The notes under the pieces: generated by a model
Databases searched by the model: none
What the model was told of the DNA's origin: nothing
What the model saw: the letters and a program-made list of their open reading frames with translations, nothing else
Assembly: GCA_937132035.1 (NCBI GenBank)
Contig: CAKZOA010000227.1
Location: forward strand, 1-42,947
Direction of reading: 5' to 3'
From: an uncultured Desulfobulbaceae bacterium
GTDB lineage: Bacteria; Desulfobacterota; Desulfobulbia; Desulfobulbales; Desulfocapsaceae
DNA length: 42,947 nucleotides
Position numbers and translations under genes: made by a program
Shown here: piece after piece, positions 20,565 to 42,352 of the stretch
How positions within the stretch are numbered: position 1 is the stretch's first letter
Layout of the letters: every line of letters begins with the position of its first letter

Positions 20565-20895
20565 TCAATTACGAGGCGAATTCTTTTCATCACGTTCATA
20601 CAAAAATTCGTACCGCACACCCTTGAGCAAACTGTAGCACATGAGAAGCATAATAGCCGTAAAGGGCAGCGCCGCAGCGATGGCCATACGCTGAAGCGCC
20701 TCAAGTCCGCCCGAGAAAAGTAGCACTGCCGCCGTGGTTGAAACCGTGCCTCCCCAGACCAGCTCCTTCAGCGGCGATGGCGTTTCCAGCCCGCCAGAGG
20801 TCATAATGGCCAATACGAAAGTAGCCGAGTCGGCAGAAGTGACAAAAAACACCACCAACAGCAACACAGCAACCGTTTCATTGTCCCCCCTGTCC
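20565..20895 (-). pseudogene. C-terminal fragment of a BCCT-family transporter
   Basis: The minus-strand frame reads VFFVTSADSATFVLAIMTSG, then PSPLKELVWGG, SGGLEALQRMAIAAALPF and LLKGVRYEFLYERDE. This is the tail of betaine/carnitine/choline transporters (BetT/OpuD type), including the conserved FFVTSADSAT segment. A complete protein is about 500-650 residues, but here about 110 remain, and an in-frame stop lies about 15 codons before the recognisable part. There is no start codon with a ribosome-binding site. Transport of glycine betaine or choline was the likely ancestral function. It lies directly downstream of a UspA fragment on the same strand. Confidence 0.8.
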
Positions 20896-37741: not shown

Positions 37742-38944
37742 TCAGTCCCCTTGGGTGTTTGCGAAATGCGGCAGCAGGCCGTGCCTTTGCTTCTCCCAGA
37801 TATCGATAACGGTGAGCGTTGCCAGTTTGCAGCGCTGTACGAGAGAGGCTTTGATCATATATTCGTCGGCGCTGTGGTCAAGGCCGCCTATCGGTCCGAG
37901 GCCGTCGAGTACCGGAATGCCGCATTCCGAAAGAGTATTGGCGTCGGAGACGCCGCTGCGCAGTTCGGACCGCAGCGGCAGGCCGAGGAAATCGGCCTGT
38001 TGCTTGAACAATCGGTAAAGGGCCCTGTTCTGTTCGGTCTGCTTCATAGGGACTCTGTTATGCGTGGCAGATATCGTACTGGTGGTCCCCTTAACAGTGG
38101 ATCGAGAGGCAATCTCCTCAACACGTTTTCTGCAGATCTCACCATCCTCGCTGGTCACGTAGCGTGTATCTATTTCGGCCGTGGCCCGCTCGGCAACGAC
38201 ATTGGCTGCACTACCTCCGGCCACCAGGCCAACATTGACAACGATTTCCTTGTCGGGGTCGTTGAGTTCTTCGAGATGAATGGTTTTGTGGGCGAGTTCG
38301 AGCACGGCGCTGGTTTTGCCCAGTTCCTGGGTGAAGGCGGCATGACCTGATTTGCCGTATATGTCGAGATGGTAACCGGATTTGCCTTTGCGCCCGGTGA
38401 CCACCTCGCCTTCGGTGCCACCGCATTCAAACACCAGTCCGCAGAGGCCTTTTCTGCCGTAGCTGCGTATCAGTTCAGCGGAGTGACGGGAGCCGGTTTC
38501 TTCGTCGGAATTGCAGATAAGGACGATGGGGATTTTCTCCAGCAGACGCTGGCTGTTGAGTGCCTTGAGCAGAAAAACGGCAGTCACCAGCCCACCTTTC
38601 ATATCACAGACGCCTGGTCCGTAGGCATGCGTTTCATCTTCCCGGTAAAAGTTGAAACTGCTCTCCAGGGGGAAGACGGTATCCATGTGGCCTACCAGTA
38701 CAAGCGGCCGCTGTGCTCGGGTAGTGACGGCAGCCGAATGAAAAATCAGGTTGTCGCCGCAAACCTGCGACTGATGAACGGTGCATTGCAGCGGGCAGTC
38801 GGCAAGCACTTGACGAAGCAGTAGGCCAACCTGGTTGACACCCTCTTTGTAGAGGGTATGGCTTGGCTGCAGGACGAGCTTTTCCAGAAGCTGAAACTGC
38901 TGTCGTTCATTGTCGTCAAGATAGTGCAGGATCTGTTGCTGCAT
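37742..38944 (-). CDS. M20-family metallopeptidase (CPG2/DapE/ArgE-like)
   Basis: A 400-residue zinc-dependent amidohydrolase. Metal ligands and catalytic residues are visible: LVGHMDTVFP, GPGVCDMKGG, NSDEETGS (general base Glu and ligand Glu), LVFECGG and DHSADEY. A lid/dimerisation domain lies between (KSGYHLDIYGKSGHAAF). M20 enzymes remove terminal amino acids or acyl groups from peptides and acylated amino acids. The gene starts three bases after the KamA-like gene and is the last of a three-gene operon with an ATP-grasp enzyme. In that context it may cut the amide formed by the ligase, or deprotect an intermediate. No signal peptide is present. Confidence 0.9.
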   Translation of the reverse strand: MQQQILHYLDDNERQQFQLLEKLVLQPSHTLYKEGVNQVGLLLRQVLADCPLQCTVHQSQVCGDNLIFHSAAVTTRAQRPLVLVGHMDTVFPLESSFNFYREDETHAYGPGVCDMKGGLVTAVFLLKALNSQRLLEKIPIVLICNSDEETGSRHSAELIRSYGRKGLCGLVFECGGTEGEVVTGRKGKSGYHLDIYGKSGHAAFTQELGKTSAVLELAHKTIHLEELNDPDKEIVVNVGLVAGGSAANVVAERATAEIDTRYVTSEDGEICRKRVEEIASRSTVKGTTSTISATHNRVPMKQTEQNRALYRLFKQQADFLGLPLRSELRSGVSDANTLSECGIPVLDGLGPIGGLDHSADEYMIKASLVQRCKLATLTVIDIWEKQRHGLLPHFANTQGD

Positions 38945-38947
38945 GAA

Positions 38948-40543
38948 TCAGCTCTGGTACGTAGCAAAGGCGAAGGAGTCCGTCTTGTAAGTGTCCGGGT
39001 CGGCATCGGGGTAGGAAACCTCCGTATCGCTCCACGGTTTACGGAGGATGTACTCATTGTCCTCGAATGAGATGACGTTGGAGCGATGCAACGGAATTTT
39101 TCCGCCGGCTGTGGCGATGTAGCGTGGGATGGCGTCGCCTGAAATATTCCCGTACATCGACTCGACAATGTCCCTGCCTACCTCCAGCGGTACCCGAAAA
39201 TGTTTGAACTGCGGATTCCGGTAGCTGCAGTTGAAGATATAGTATGGGCGAACGTAGGCTTCATGTATGGTTTCGCAGAGTTTCCACATTTTTACCCGGC
39301 TGTCGTTGATGCCCTTGAGCAGTACTGCCTGGTTCAAAATGGTGAAAGAACGTTTGCTCAGACGCCGGTAGGCATCGCGCGAGAGGGGGGTGATTTCCTG
39401 GGCGGTGTTTATTTGGGTGACTACGCGGATAGGTTTTCTGTCGTTTGATTCTTCTATTATATCGAGGAGTTCGTCGTCGATTCGCATGGGCGCCGTCACC
39501 GGTATGCGGGTGCCCAGACGTTTGACTTTGACGTGGTCGATGTCGTCGAGTTGTGCCAGCAGCCATTTGAGTATGGAGTTGGGCAAGACGAAGGCGTCGC
39601 CGCCGGTGACCAGGATATCCCGTATGTTCTCGTTGTTCCGTATGTATTCAAGTGCCTCACCGTAGGCCTCCCAGGAGTAGGTTTTGTCCTTCCTGCCGAT
39701 ATGGGCTATGCGCAGACAGTGGGTGCAGTACATGGCGCACATATTGGTGGCCTTGATGGTGACCACTCTCGGATAGAACTGGTCGATGAGCCGGGCCGGA
39801 GAGTGATCTGCTGCCACCGGTGGAATCTCGATGCCGGCGTTGTCGACCATTTCACCGGTGGGGACGGATTGCAGCATTACAGGGTCATTGATGTTTCCCG
39901 GCATGATGAGGGAGCTGTAGTAGGGGGTGAGCCGCATGCGGAAATTTTTGGTCACCCGTCCTATGGAAGCTACGGCCTCGGCCGGCAGGTCGATGAGCTC
40001 GGCCAGTTCTTCGGCGGTGTTGATACAGTTGCGGATCTGGCCCTTGTAGCTTCCCCACTCGTTGGTGCTCATATTCAGCTTTGTGCGAATTCGTTCGCCG
40101 TTTTCCTGAATCTGCGGCCAGAGCTCGATGCCGCTCGGTGCCTCTGTATCCTTACGGGCAAGATATTCCTCAACCCGGGCGTTGGACTTGCCGGCTATTG
40201 GCAGCGCCTGGGTGAGACGGCCGCCGAGTGAGACCATGTGCTCGTCGATCTGCTGGTGTTTCAAGGCCAGGTTGCACAGATCCATCTTTGTCAGTCCGAA
40301 GTCCCGGATGCTGTTGCCGGCAAGGCGCTGTTTGAGGAGTTCCTGGAAAAGGCTGATGATGGGACCGGTCAGATTCTTCTTACAGGCCTTCTCAACCAGC
40401 TGGGAAAGTTCCTTCTTTACTGCCCCCGTGGGTACCTGGCCCTTCTCCCTGGGAGGATCTCCGGTAAGCTTGCCGATGAGTTCGAGGGTGTACTGGTCCA
40501 ATGCGTTGTGACAGTCCTGATCGCTGCGTATGTGCGGTTCCAT
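38948..40543 (-). CDS. KamA-like radical SAM aminomutase
   Basis: A 531-residue radical SAM enzyme of the lysine 2,3-aminomutase group. The cluster motif is Cys269-x3-Cys273-x2-Cys276 (CAMYCTHC). It is followed by LVTGGDAFVL, LGTRIPVTAPMRI, NQAVLLKGIND, and Lys482 in ATAGGKIPL, aligned with the PLP-binding lysine of LAM. The N-terminal 200 residues are helical and longer than in short EpmB-type members. By memory alignment, the Asp in the CDLS segment and the Asp before the GGGGK motif, which hold the side-chain amine of lysine in LAM, are replaced here (FNCSYRN and YIATAGG). Another amino acid is therefore the likely substrate. It lies eight bases after the ATP-grasp gene and three bases before the M20 gene. 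Confidence 0.88.
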   Translation of the reverse strand: MEPHIRSDQDCHNALDQYTLELIGKLTGDPPREKGQVPTGAVKKELSQLVEKACKKNLTGPIISLFQELLKQRLAGNSIRDFGLTKMDLCNLALKHQQIDEHMVSLGGRLTQALPIAGKSNARVEEYLARKDTEAPSGIELWPQIQENGERIRTKLNMSTNEWGSYKGQIRNCINTAEELAELIDLPAEAVASIGRVTKNFRMRLTPYYSSLIMPGNINDPVMLQSVPTGEMVDNAGIEIPPVAADHSPARLIDQFYPRVVTIKATNMCAMYCTHCLRIAHIGRKDKTYSWEAYGEALEYIRNNENIRDILVTGGDAFVLPNSILKWLLAQLDDIDHVKVKRLGTRIPVTAPMRIDDELLDIIEESNDRKPIRVVTQINTAQEITPLSRDAYRRLSKRSFTILNQAVLLKGINDSRVKMWKLCETIHEAYVRPYYIFNCSYRNPQFKHFRVPLEVGRDIVESMYGNISGDAIPRYIATAGGKIPLHRSNVISFEDNEYILRKPWSDTEVSYPDADPDTYKTDSFAFATYQS

Positions 40544-40551
40544 GATGATAA

Positions 40552-42006
40552 TTAGGCCTCTTCAATGGTTTGTTGTATGAATCCTACTCCTTGACACAAT
40601 CCTTCGTTGACTTCCTCTCTGTTGGTGGCTACGGAAACGACTCTGGCGAGAAACGTTCCGGGCATGACATAGAAGTTGGTGCCCACGTGTTCGAGGATGG
40701 CAAAATCTTTGAGCAGTTCACCATTGGCAACTTTTCTAAAAGTTTCACGCTCGTAGATGTTCTGGGGAATGTAGCCCGTTGTTCTCTTCTGGGTATCTAT
40801 CTTGTAATTGTACGTTCCCCAGTGAAGATTGCGGTGGTTGGAGGACAGCTCTCTGGTGTTTTTGGGGAAGCGGTCTTCGGTGACGGCAAAGTATTCCAGT
40901 TCCATGAGAGAGGGACTGCCTTCCGGCAGCGACTGTTCGAGGGTCAGACAGAACTCCAGCGTCGTGCCTTGCTTGCGGGCATTGATTTCCAGAAAGACGA
41001 CGTTGCCGTCGTGGTCGATGAGATAGTCACAGCCGAAGATACCGCGATAGCCATGATGGCCAAGAATTTTGCCCACCCTGACGGTGTAGTCTCTCAGAAT
41101 CTGCTGGCTTGCGGCGTCGAGTTCCGTCGGATAGAGCGAGCCGACGAAACGGTTGCCGCCGACGATAACCTGATCTGCTATGCCGGCGATATAGACATCG
41201 TTTTCGTTGGCGACCACGGCCAGAACGGTAGGATCATAGGTGTGAGGTATGTAACGCGACAGCAGATAGAGACTGTCTTCGTCGGTGAATATCGAGGTCA
41301 CCTCCTCCTGGTTTCGAGTCACGGCTGAATTTGAACCGGCGGCGGAATAGGGGGTGCTGATGAAGATACCTTCACCCCATTGCCGGCGCAGACCGGCAGT
41401 GGTCTGCAGAAGAGATTCAAGCCCGTCGCAGATATGGTGTTCGGCCATGGGGACAATACCATTGAGTGTCTGGTACTGGAAAATCTTGGAATTGAATCTT
41501 TTGGCGATGGTTTTATCGGGTCCGAGAATGGTAACGCCTTCGATTTCATCGAGGGTCAGCTCCTCTATGGATTCATAGAGACTTATATAGAGCTGGTTCT
41601 GCTTTTTGAGGATGGTGTCGATCAATGCGCGGATGGTTTTGCTGGCGGAAACCGCGGAGATGAAATGATCATATTTTATGCGACAGCTTTTGCGAAAGGC
41701 GCCGAGGTTGAGCCTGCCCAGTTCTTCGTCGACTGCTCCCAGCCTGGCCTCGGGATTGATGACGAAGATGTTGGCGTAGTTGTACTGAATGCAGATATCA
41801 GGTATTACGGCAATAAACCGGACCTCTTTGTTGTAGACTCGCCGGTTGAGCGTTTCCTGAAGGAAGGTGTTGAGGCCATAGGCCTTGAGATCGCCTATGT
41901 AGAGGAAATAATAATAATCGGGATTGTAGGTAAAGTTCGAGAAGAGGATTTCATCGTCATAGTCCATGGTCTGCCGCTCGTGTAAGGTGGGAGCTGAGGT
42001 GGGCAT
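40552..42006 (-). CDS. ATP-grasp enzyme, probable amide ligase
   Basis: About 484 residues from the ATG at 42006; an ATG at 41967 is possible. The frame is open to 42342, but that part contains a strong terminator and is better read as leader. The C-terminal half carries ATP-grasp features: VIVGGNRFVGSLYPTEL, HHGYRGIFGCDYLIDHDGNV and the metal-binding VVFLEINARKQGTTL. The N-terminus has an unusual run NPDYYYFLYIGDL. ATP-grasp enzymes activate a carboxylate as acyl phosphate and join it to an amine, thiol or nitrogen. I do not recognise the subfamily. It is first in an operon with a KamA-like aminomutase and an M20 peptidase. Confidence 0.8.
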   Translation of the reverse strand: MPTSAPTLHERQTMDYDDEILFSNFTYNPDYYYFLYIGDLKAYGLNTFLQETLNRRVYNKEVRFIAVIPDICIQYNYANIFVINPEARLGAVDEELGRLNLGAFRKSCRIKYDHFISAVSASKTIRALIDTILKKQNQLYISLYESIEELTLDEIEGVTILGPDKTIAKRFNSKIFQYQTLNGIVPMAEHHICDGLESLLQTTAGLRRQWGEGIFISTPYSAAGSNSAVTRNQEEVTSIFTDEDSLYLLSRYIPHTYDPTVLAVVANENDVYIAGIADQVIVGGNRFVGSLYPTELDAASQQILRDYTVRVGKILGHHGYRGIFGCDYLIDHDGNVVFLEINARKQGTTLEFCLTLEQSLPEGSPSLMELEYFAVTEDRFPKNTRELSSNHRNLHWGTYNYKIDTQKRTTGYIPQNIYERETFRKVANGELLKDFAILEHVGTNFYVMPGTFLARVVSVATNREEVNEGLCQGVGFIQQTIEEA

Positions 42007-42061
42007 GTCTTTACCGCCGTCACTCAATGAGTGTCGCCCTGCCAGTGTAAGGAAAAAAAAA

Positions 42062-42092
42062 CGGCCAGTCTTCGCTGTAAGAGAAGTGGCCG
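42062..42092 (-). terminator. Strong terminator in the leader of the ATP-grasp operon
   Basis: CGGCCA (42062-42067) pairs with TGGCCG (42087-42092), with an inner CTTC/GAAG helix. On the minus strand the stem is followed by nine or so T residues (A-run 42053-42061). It lies between the predicted promoter near 42350 and the ATG at 42006, so readthrough is needed for the operon to be expressed from that promoter. Confidence 0.75.
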
Positions 42093-42323
42093 CTGTCTGT
42101 AATTGTTTTGGGATATTGTTCGTGGAAGACAAACCCGGCGCAGAGTGCTGGGGGCGAGGCTGCCGGAAAAACGGTTGGATATGAGAAATCCATACAGCAG
42201 GAAATAGGCACAGCAATTTTCCTTCATCTGTCTGAGCGATTGAAACGCTGCCCTTAATACCTTCATGCCTGAGGAACCGCTGCCAGGTAAGGAAAATATC
42301 CAACTCAGGGCTATTTTTCCCAT

Positions 42324-42352
42324 TCAATACCTCCGGCACCACCCTTTGTCAA
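42324..42352 (-). promoter_or_regulatory. Predicted sigma-70-type promoter of the ATP-grasp operon
   Basis: On the minus strand TTGACA (plus 42347-42352) and TATTGA (plus 42324-42329) are separated by exactly 17 bases. The -35 box is a perfect match and the -10 box is partial. The transcript would have a leader of about 310 bases that includes the terminator at 42062-42092. Confidence 0.5.

Follow-up and report, generated by a model that had tools for sequence, protein, structure and literature searches.

Gene content of the locus

The window analyzed in this work is a stretch of 42,947 nucleotides from an uncultured Desulfobulbaceae bacterium (GenBank assembly GCA_937132035.1, contig CAKZOA010000227.1). 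Its minus strand carries, in order, a putative ATP-grasp amide ligase (positions 40552 to 41967; 471 amino acids), a KamA-family radical SAM/PLP aminomutase (38948 to 40543; 531 amino acids), and a carboxypeptidase G2-like M20 metallohydrolase that appears to be accessory (37742 to 38944; 400 amino acids). The gaps are only 8 bases (ATP-grasp/KamA) and 3 bases (KamA/M20). The original prediction had assigned these three families from the letters of the DNA, and profile searches confirmed each of them: PF02655 (ATP-grasp_3; 29.4 bits versus a cut-off of 23.2), PF04055 (Radical_SAM) together with TIGR00238 (KamA family; 248.7 versus 199.2 bits), and PF01546 (Peptidase_M20; 79.5 bits, above its cut-off), with PF07687 likewise above its cut-off in the M20 protein. 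A plus-strand gene encoding S30AE and cold-shock domains (PF02482 and PF00313; 37132 to 37665) converges on the three genes and lies outside the unit.

The ATP-grasp open reading frame was initially called from 40552 to 42342, with a GTG start at 42342. This call is ∼125 residues too long: in an alignment of 43 homologues, the proteins begin at an ATG near 41967, and the GTG at 42342 is therefore probably unused.

Conservation of the module

Scanning genome contigs identified 80 named KamA-family loci (57 to 76% identity), most of them from metagenome assemblies. Where the contig was long enough for the neighbor to be assessed, the ATP-grasp gene lay directly upstream of KamA in 52 of 63 loci, and M20 immediately followed KamA in 51 of 68; the median gap was 9 bases for both gene pairs across the 80 loci. 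One locus (L075) has a changed gene order, yet all three genes are still together. An arrangement of this kind is far beyond chance. The proposal of a single tightly packed unit thus holds both for the spacing in the window and for adjacency across loci, and the neighborhood check that accompanied it revealed wide co-occurrence of the three families rather than adjacency confined to this genome. In L070 (2231 to 6629), the module is accompanied by genes for a glutamine synthetase and another KamA-family protein.

At the orthologue level, KamA and the ATP-grasp gene occur in the identical 9 of 146 genomes of the order, and neither gene is ever found alone (hypergeometric P = 1.5e-14, kinship not considered). 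Among these nine genomes, the ATP-grasp gene is split over two frames in G088 and partial in G130. Within a sample of the phylum, the ATP-grasp gene is rare (5 of 247 genomes). Three genomes (G049, G137, and G108) possess the ATP-grasp and KamA pair with no such M20 gene anywhere in the genome; the core of the module is therefore the ATP-grasp and KamA pair, while M20 is accessory and dispensable. The view of all three genes as one pathway consequently stands for the core pair but not for M20 as an obligatory member. In Desulfofustis-type loci without M20, the S30AE/cold-shock gene directly follows KamA, and the same gene flanks M20 in the window.

No description of this combination of genes was found in the open-access literature, and we regard it as a conserved enzyme module, so far undescribed, that is carried by marine-type sulfate reducers and a small number of other bacteria. 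Its presence in 9 of 146 genomes provides a clean genetic contrast for comparison. Many of the named hosts belong to what we take to be marine, estuarine, or soda-lake lineages, although not all are saline. As these habitats were judged from host names and some hosts are non-saline, the salt habit of the hosts was not counted as support for any function.

A divergent KamA subfamily

The best equivalog match of the window KamA protein is glutamate 2,3-aminomutase (EAM; TIGR04368), at 344.5 bits versus a cut-off of 650. EAM is thus its best-scoring characterized relative, and the two share the radical SAM and PLP core, but the window protein falls 300 bits under the cut-off. The CxxxCxxC cysteines (C269, C273, and C276) and the PLP-type lysine (K482) are invariant in the family, as are S440, R442, R474, and T478 among 43 aligned members. 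S440 and T478 stand where the lysine 2,3-aminomutase structure 2a5h has D293 and D330, presumably the aspartates that hold the lysine side chain, and R442 and R474 are near in sequence. At these two positions, glutamate 2,3-aminomutases have what we take to be a diagnostic Lys and Asn; all 43 aligned members have Ser and Thr instead. The window protein further differs from EAM in extra Arg residues, a 3-residue deletion ahead of the PLP lysine, and a helical N-terminal extension of ∼110 to 150 amino acids before the aminomutase core (AlphaFold model, pLDDT 85.4). The only close structural match to this model is 2a5h.

In a maximum-likelihood tree, the family forms one clade on a stem of 6.24 changes per column, apart from the lysine and glutamate enzymes, and placement of the window protein inside the glutamate 2,3-aminomutase clade received no support. 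The protein represents a new, long-branched KamA subfamily with a rebuilt side-chain pocket. Because the marker Lys is absent, three residues are deleted, and the stem is very long, its substrate may be a derivative of glutamate or another amino acid.

Membership in the KamA superfamily would also be compatible with a standard EpmB, which acts on EF-P, or with a lysine 2,3-aminomutase (AblA) for acetyl-β-lysine. The scores fall well below the respective cut-offs (EpmB, TIGR03821, 183.8 versus 369.3 bits; AblA, TIGR03820, 291.3 versus 525.4 bits), and both lysine-binding aspartates are gone in all family members. No open reading frame for efp or epmA was recognized beside the KamA gene in the window or the locus set, and no acetyltransferase was found next to it. 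Both identities were rejected on score and active-site residues, and we consider a role of either kind extremely improbable; the standard EF-P enzyme that could have undone the original prediction is not what the gene encodes. The prediction had also noted that no acetyltransferase is adjacent, and there is indeed no acetyl-β-lysine operon here: the AblB homologue of the window genome is on another contig (C424), and in G061 AblB lies beside a KamA gene elsewhere. Across genomes, AblB showed no association with the module (P = 0.63). The AblA/AblB operon is comparable in pairing a KamA enzyme with a second enzyme that masks the β-amino acid. The module, on the other hand, has a ligase in place of the acetyltransferase and lacks a lysine-type pocket.

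The ATP-grasp ligase and the M20 hydrolase

The 43 ATP-grasp homologues share >50 invariant residues and the motif FxExNARKQGTT. Structure prediction, which had been suggested as a check, yielded a full-length AlphaFold2 model (pLDDT 92.3) in which all three domains of the fold seen in PurK, PurT, and biotin carboxylase are present. PylC (Z 24.5, rmsd 4.2, 320 residues aligned) and the amino acid ligase RizA are among its structural matches. The similarity to PylC is a fold match only, many other ATP-grasp enzymes match equally well, and the substrate cannot be read from such folds. Among solved proteins, BesA alone shows significant sequence similarity to the module ligase; it is an L-propargylglycine-L-glutamate ligase (8yi6; E = 1.4e-5 over ∼90 residues). 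This kinship to a glutamate ligase is weak, and the module ligase is far from membership in the BesA family (NF042917; 32.4 bits versus a cut-off of 750).

Combining a mutase with a ligase recalls PylB and PylC, in which a radical SAM amino acid mutase is followed by an ATP-grasp ligase that joins the product to an amino acid. PylB is not known to be a KamA protein, and no PylD or PylS/PylT partner was noticed with the module, which resembles the PylB/PylC logic without being a pyrrolysine pathway. A distant, degenerate ATP-grasp relative with the motif ARKHGAALE was observed in genome G351 (locus L140, 6971 to 8398, minus strand); as no KamA gene was recognized beside it, this locus was dropped as support for the module.

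For the M20 protein, the closest solved relatives are structures of carboxypeptidase G2 (6xj5 and 1cg2), at a distant E = 9e-30. The metal ligands H86, D114, E148/E149, E173, and H357 are invariant among 27 members, and N248, R261, and R297 align with N275, R288, and R324 of carboxypeptidase G2, which we take to be the residues contacting the glutamate part of its substrate. The protein exceeds no NCBIfam equivalog cut-off. Taken together, the profiles and intact motifs support the predicted logic of a ligase, an aminomutase, and an amide hydrolase.

Links to glutamate

A search with the TIGR04368 model retrieved one true member (L119), which has Lys and Asn at the two side-chain positions. 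The next matches, L120 (632 bits) and L121 (608 bits), fall just under the cut-off of 650 and have Lys and Thr. The surroundings of these two genes (L131, 7573 to 11707, and L132, 735 to 4659, respectively) contain the same ATP-grasp ligase and the same M20 hydrolase in the same order, such that a near-canonical glutamate 2,3-aminomutase fills the operon position of KamA. In L132, a single 922-codon open frame spans both ATP-grasp and KamA, a fusion that could be an assembly error. The ligase is thus paired with two distinct kinds of KamA protein, one of them close to the glutamate enzyme.

Beyond the three genes, the proteins most often encoded nearby are UspA, a TAXI binding protein, and a fused TRAP permease that carries DUF3394 (PF11874). 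The TAXI protein scores 382.2 bits against TIGR02122 (cut-off, 84.35) and 443 bits against VcGluP, and residues corresponding to VcGluP Y45, S75, Q93, and E125 are conserved in the TAXI proteins of 29 fetched loci, L131 included. VcGluP, from a Vibrio TAXI-TRAP system, has been shown to be glutamate specific, and mutation of Tyr45 and Gln93 caused 213- and 990-fold losses of affinity (PMC11574862). The module partner thus has both the glutamate-binding residues and the DUF3394 claw domain of VcGluPQM (8s4j) with UspA, but it is a neighbor or genome partner outside the three-gene unit. Counting the permease also where it is not adjacent (as in the window genome, where it is on contig C25), full-length DUF3394 permeases occur in 7 of 9 module genomes versus 1 of 137 others (P = 1.2e-9, kinship ignored); when partial matches are included, the counts are 9 of 9 versus 11 of 137. 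Part of the TAXI association reflects common ancestry, and the presence of a glutamate transporter is poorly informative about the product. Considering these sequence comparisons, glutamate or one of its derivatives, and not lysine, is the most likely amino acid.

Loci without the ATP-grasp gene

Ten named loci have KamA, mostly with M20, but no ATP-grasp gene beside KamA. None was found elsewhere in the genomes of these loci, a negative result whose reliability depends on the quality of the assemblies. Seven of the ten (L067, L076, L085, L088, L096, L102, and L104) contain a γ-glutamyltranspeptidase (GGT) gene, another hint at glutamyl amides, and five of these seven also have Dpp-type peptide ABC transporter genes. 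Single loci add an amidohydrolase or a class III aminotransferase. The ATP-grasp-less loci may represent consumers, or a breakdown version for a related compound. On the plus strand of the Spirochaete contig L067 (14080 to 14180), we noted a match to RF02510 (mttB pyrrolysine insertion element) just above the gathering score.

Extended to all loci, this reading would make the module catabolic: a β-amino acid amide would be taken up and broken down, with KamA working from β to α and M20 or GGT acting as hydrolases. Besides the ten loci, their GGT and Dpp genes, and the amidohydrolase and aminotransferase, it draws on FCD-type GntR regulators near the unit in 13 loci; such regulators are common in catabolic operons. 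Against it, the strictest partner in most loci is an ATP-consuming ligase, which makes little sense for breakdown alone, and M20 is missing from three genomes that bear the ligase. We consider a purely catabolic module quite unlikely.

Proposed pathway

We favor, with a probability of roughly 0.55, a glutamate-based small-molecule pathway with a β-glutamate-type product, ATP-dependent amide formation, and hydrolysis by M20. The gene unit, its conservation, the intact catalytic motifs, and the links that tie it to near-canonical glutamate 2,3-aminomutases and a glutamate-type transporter are computed results; from them we infer what the enzymes act on, what they make, which way each step runs, and that the product could serve as a compatible solute. 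Glutamate would come from the cell's own synthesis or from uptake by the partner VcGluPQM-type TAXI-TRAP system. The KamA-like enzyme (4Fe-4S, SAM, and PLP) would move the amino group of glutamate or a derivative from the α to the β carbon. The ATP-grasp enzyme would then activate a carboxylate with ATP and form an amide that links the β-amino acid to an amine, in the most likely case an amino acid; the result would be a β-glutamyl-type dipeptide or amide. Where present, M20 would cut that amide, allowing the compound to be recycled. Glutamate or a derivative is probably the substrate, and coupling to an amine or amino acid seems likely.

The order of steps could also be reversed, with the ATP-grasp enzyme making a γ-glutamyl or other glutamate amide, KamA shifting the amino group at the free glutamyl end of that conjugate, and M20 or GGT cleaving it, so that the β-amino acid would exist only within the conjugate. 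The ATP-grasp gene is first in gene order, the KamA pocket is rebuilt relative to free-glutamate enzymes and preceded by a large extension, and GGT takes the place of the ATP-grasp gene in seven loci. There is also a precedent in BesA, which makes a γ-glutamyl dipeptide as a pathway intermediate. The KamA partner in L131 and L132, however, is close to an enzyme of free glutamate, and we regard this alternative as unlikely.

PylBC- and BesA-like logic serves special amino acids and natural products, to judge from these families, which raises the idea that the product is a secreted signal, an antibiotic, or a cell surface decoration rather than a solute. In the 80 loci, conservation around the unit extends to no other biosynthetic or export genes, and the recurrent partners are the glutamate TRAP transporter and UspA; a secreted or surface product is accordingly improbable.

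Possible osmotic role

Within the favored glutamate pathway, a role of the product as an osmolyte (compatible solute) is plausible but tentative. The fuller proposal, in which saline-sediment anaerobes use a new KamA subfamily and its dedicated ATP-grasp ligase to make a β-glutamate dipeptide or amide as a compatible solute that M20 then turns over, is more doubtful. Known producers of β-glutamate compounds are mainly archaea. Marine methanogens use β-glutamate as a major osmolyte, and so does Nitrosopumilus maritimus, in which it reaches 730 mM inside cells (PMC8269262). Few bacteria are known to contain β-glutamate, and the methanogen route is thought not to involve a glutamate aminomutase (PMC1224877). 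If the proposal is true, the module would provide a bacterial source of β-glutamate compounds, and the conserved mutase and ligase of these sulfate reducers would indicate both a new route and an unsought coupled product. For chemists, the module offers named, expressible enzymes, namely, two KamA subfamilies with one common ligase partner.

In bacteria, a link between eam genes and Na+ riboswitches has been described (PMC9337991). A search of the window region and of 16 loci detected neither Na+ nor c-di-AMP riboswitches. BCCT betaine transporters occur in 3 of 9 module genomes versus 14 of 137 others (P = 0.07), an association too weak to use, in which the window-genome matches are fragments. 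The riboswitch, BCCT, and AblB tests thus give no support for osmotic control. One of the fragments lies in the window itself (20565 to 20876, minus strand), where ∼100 amino acids of a C-terminal BCCT betaine/choline transporter remnant cover positions 396 to 483 of PF02028; the same genome has further BCCT pieces on contigs C228 and C335.
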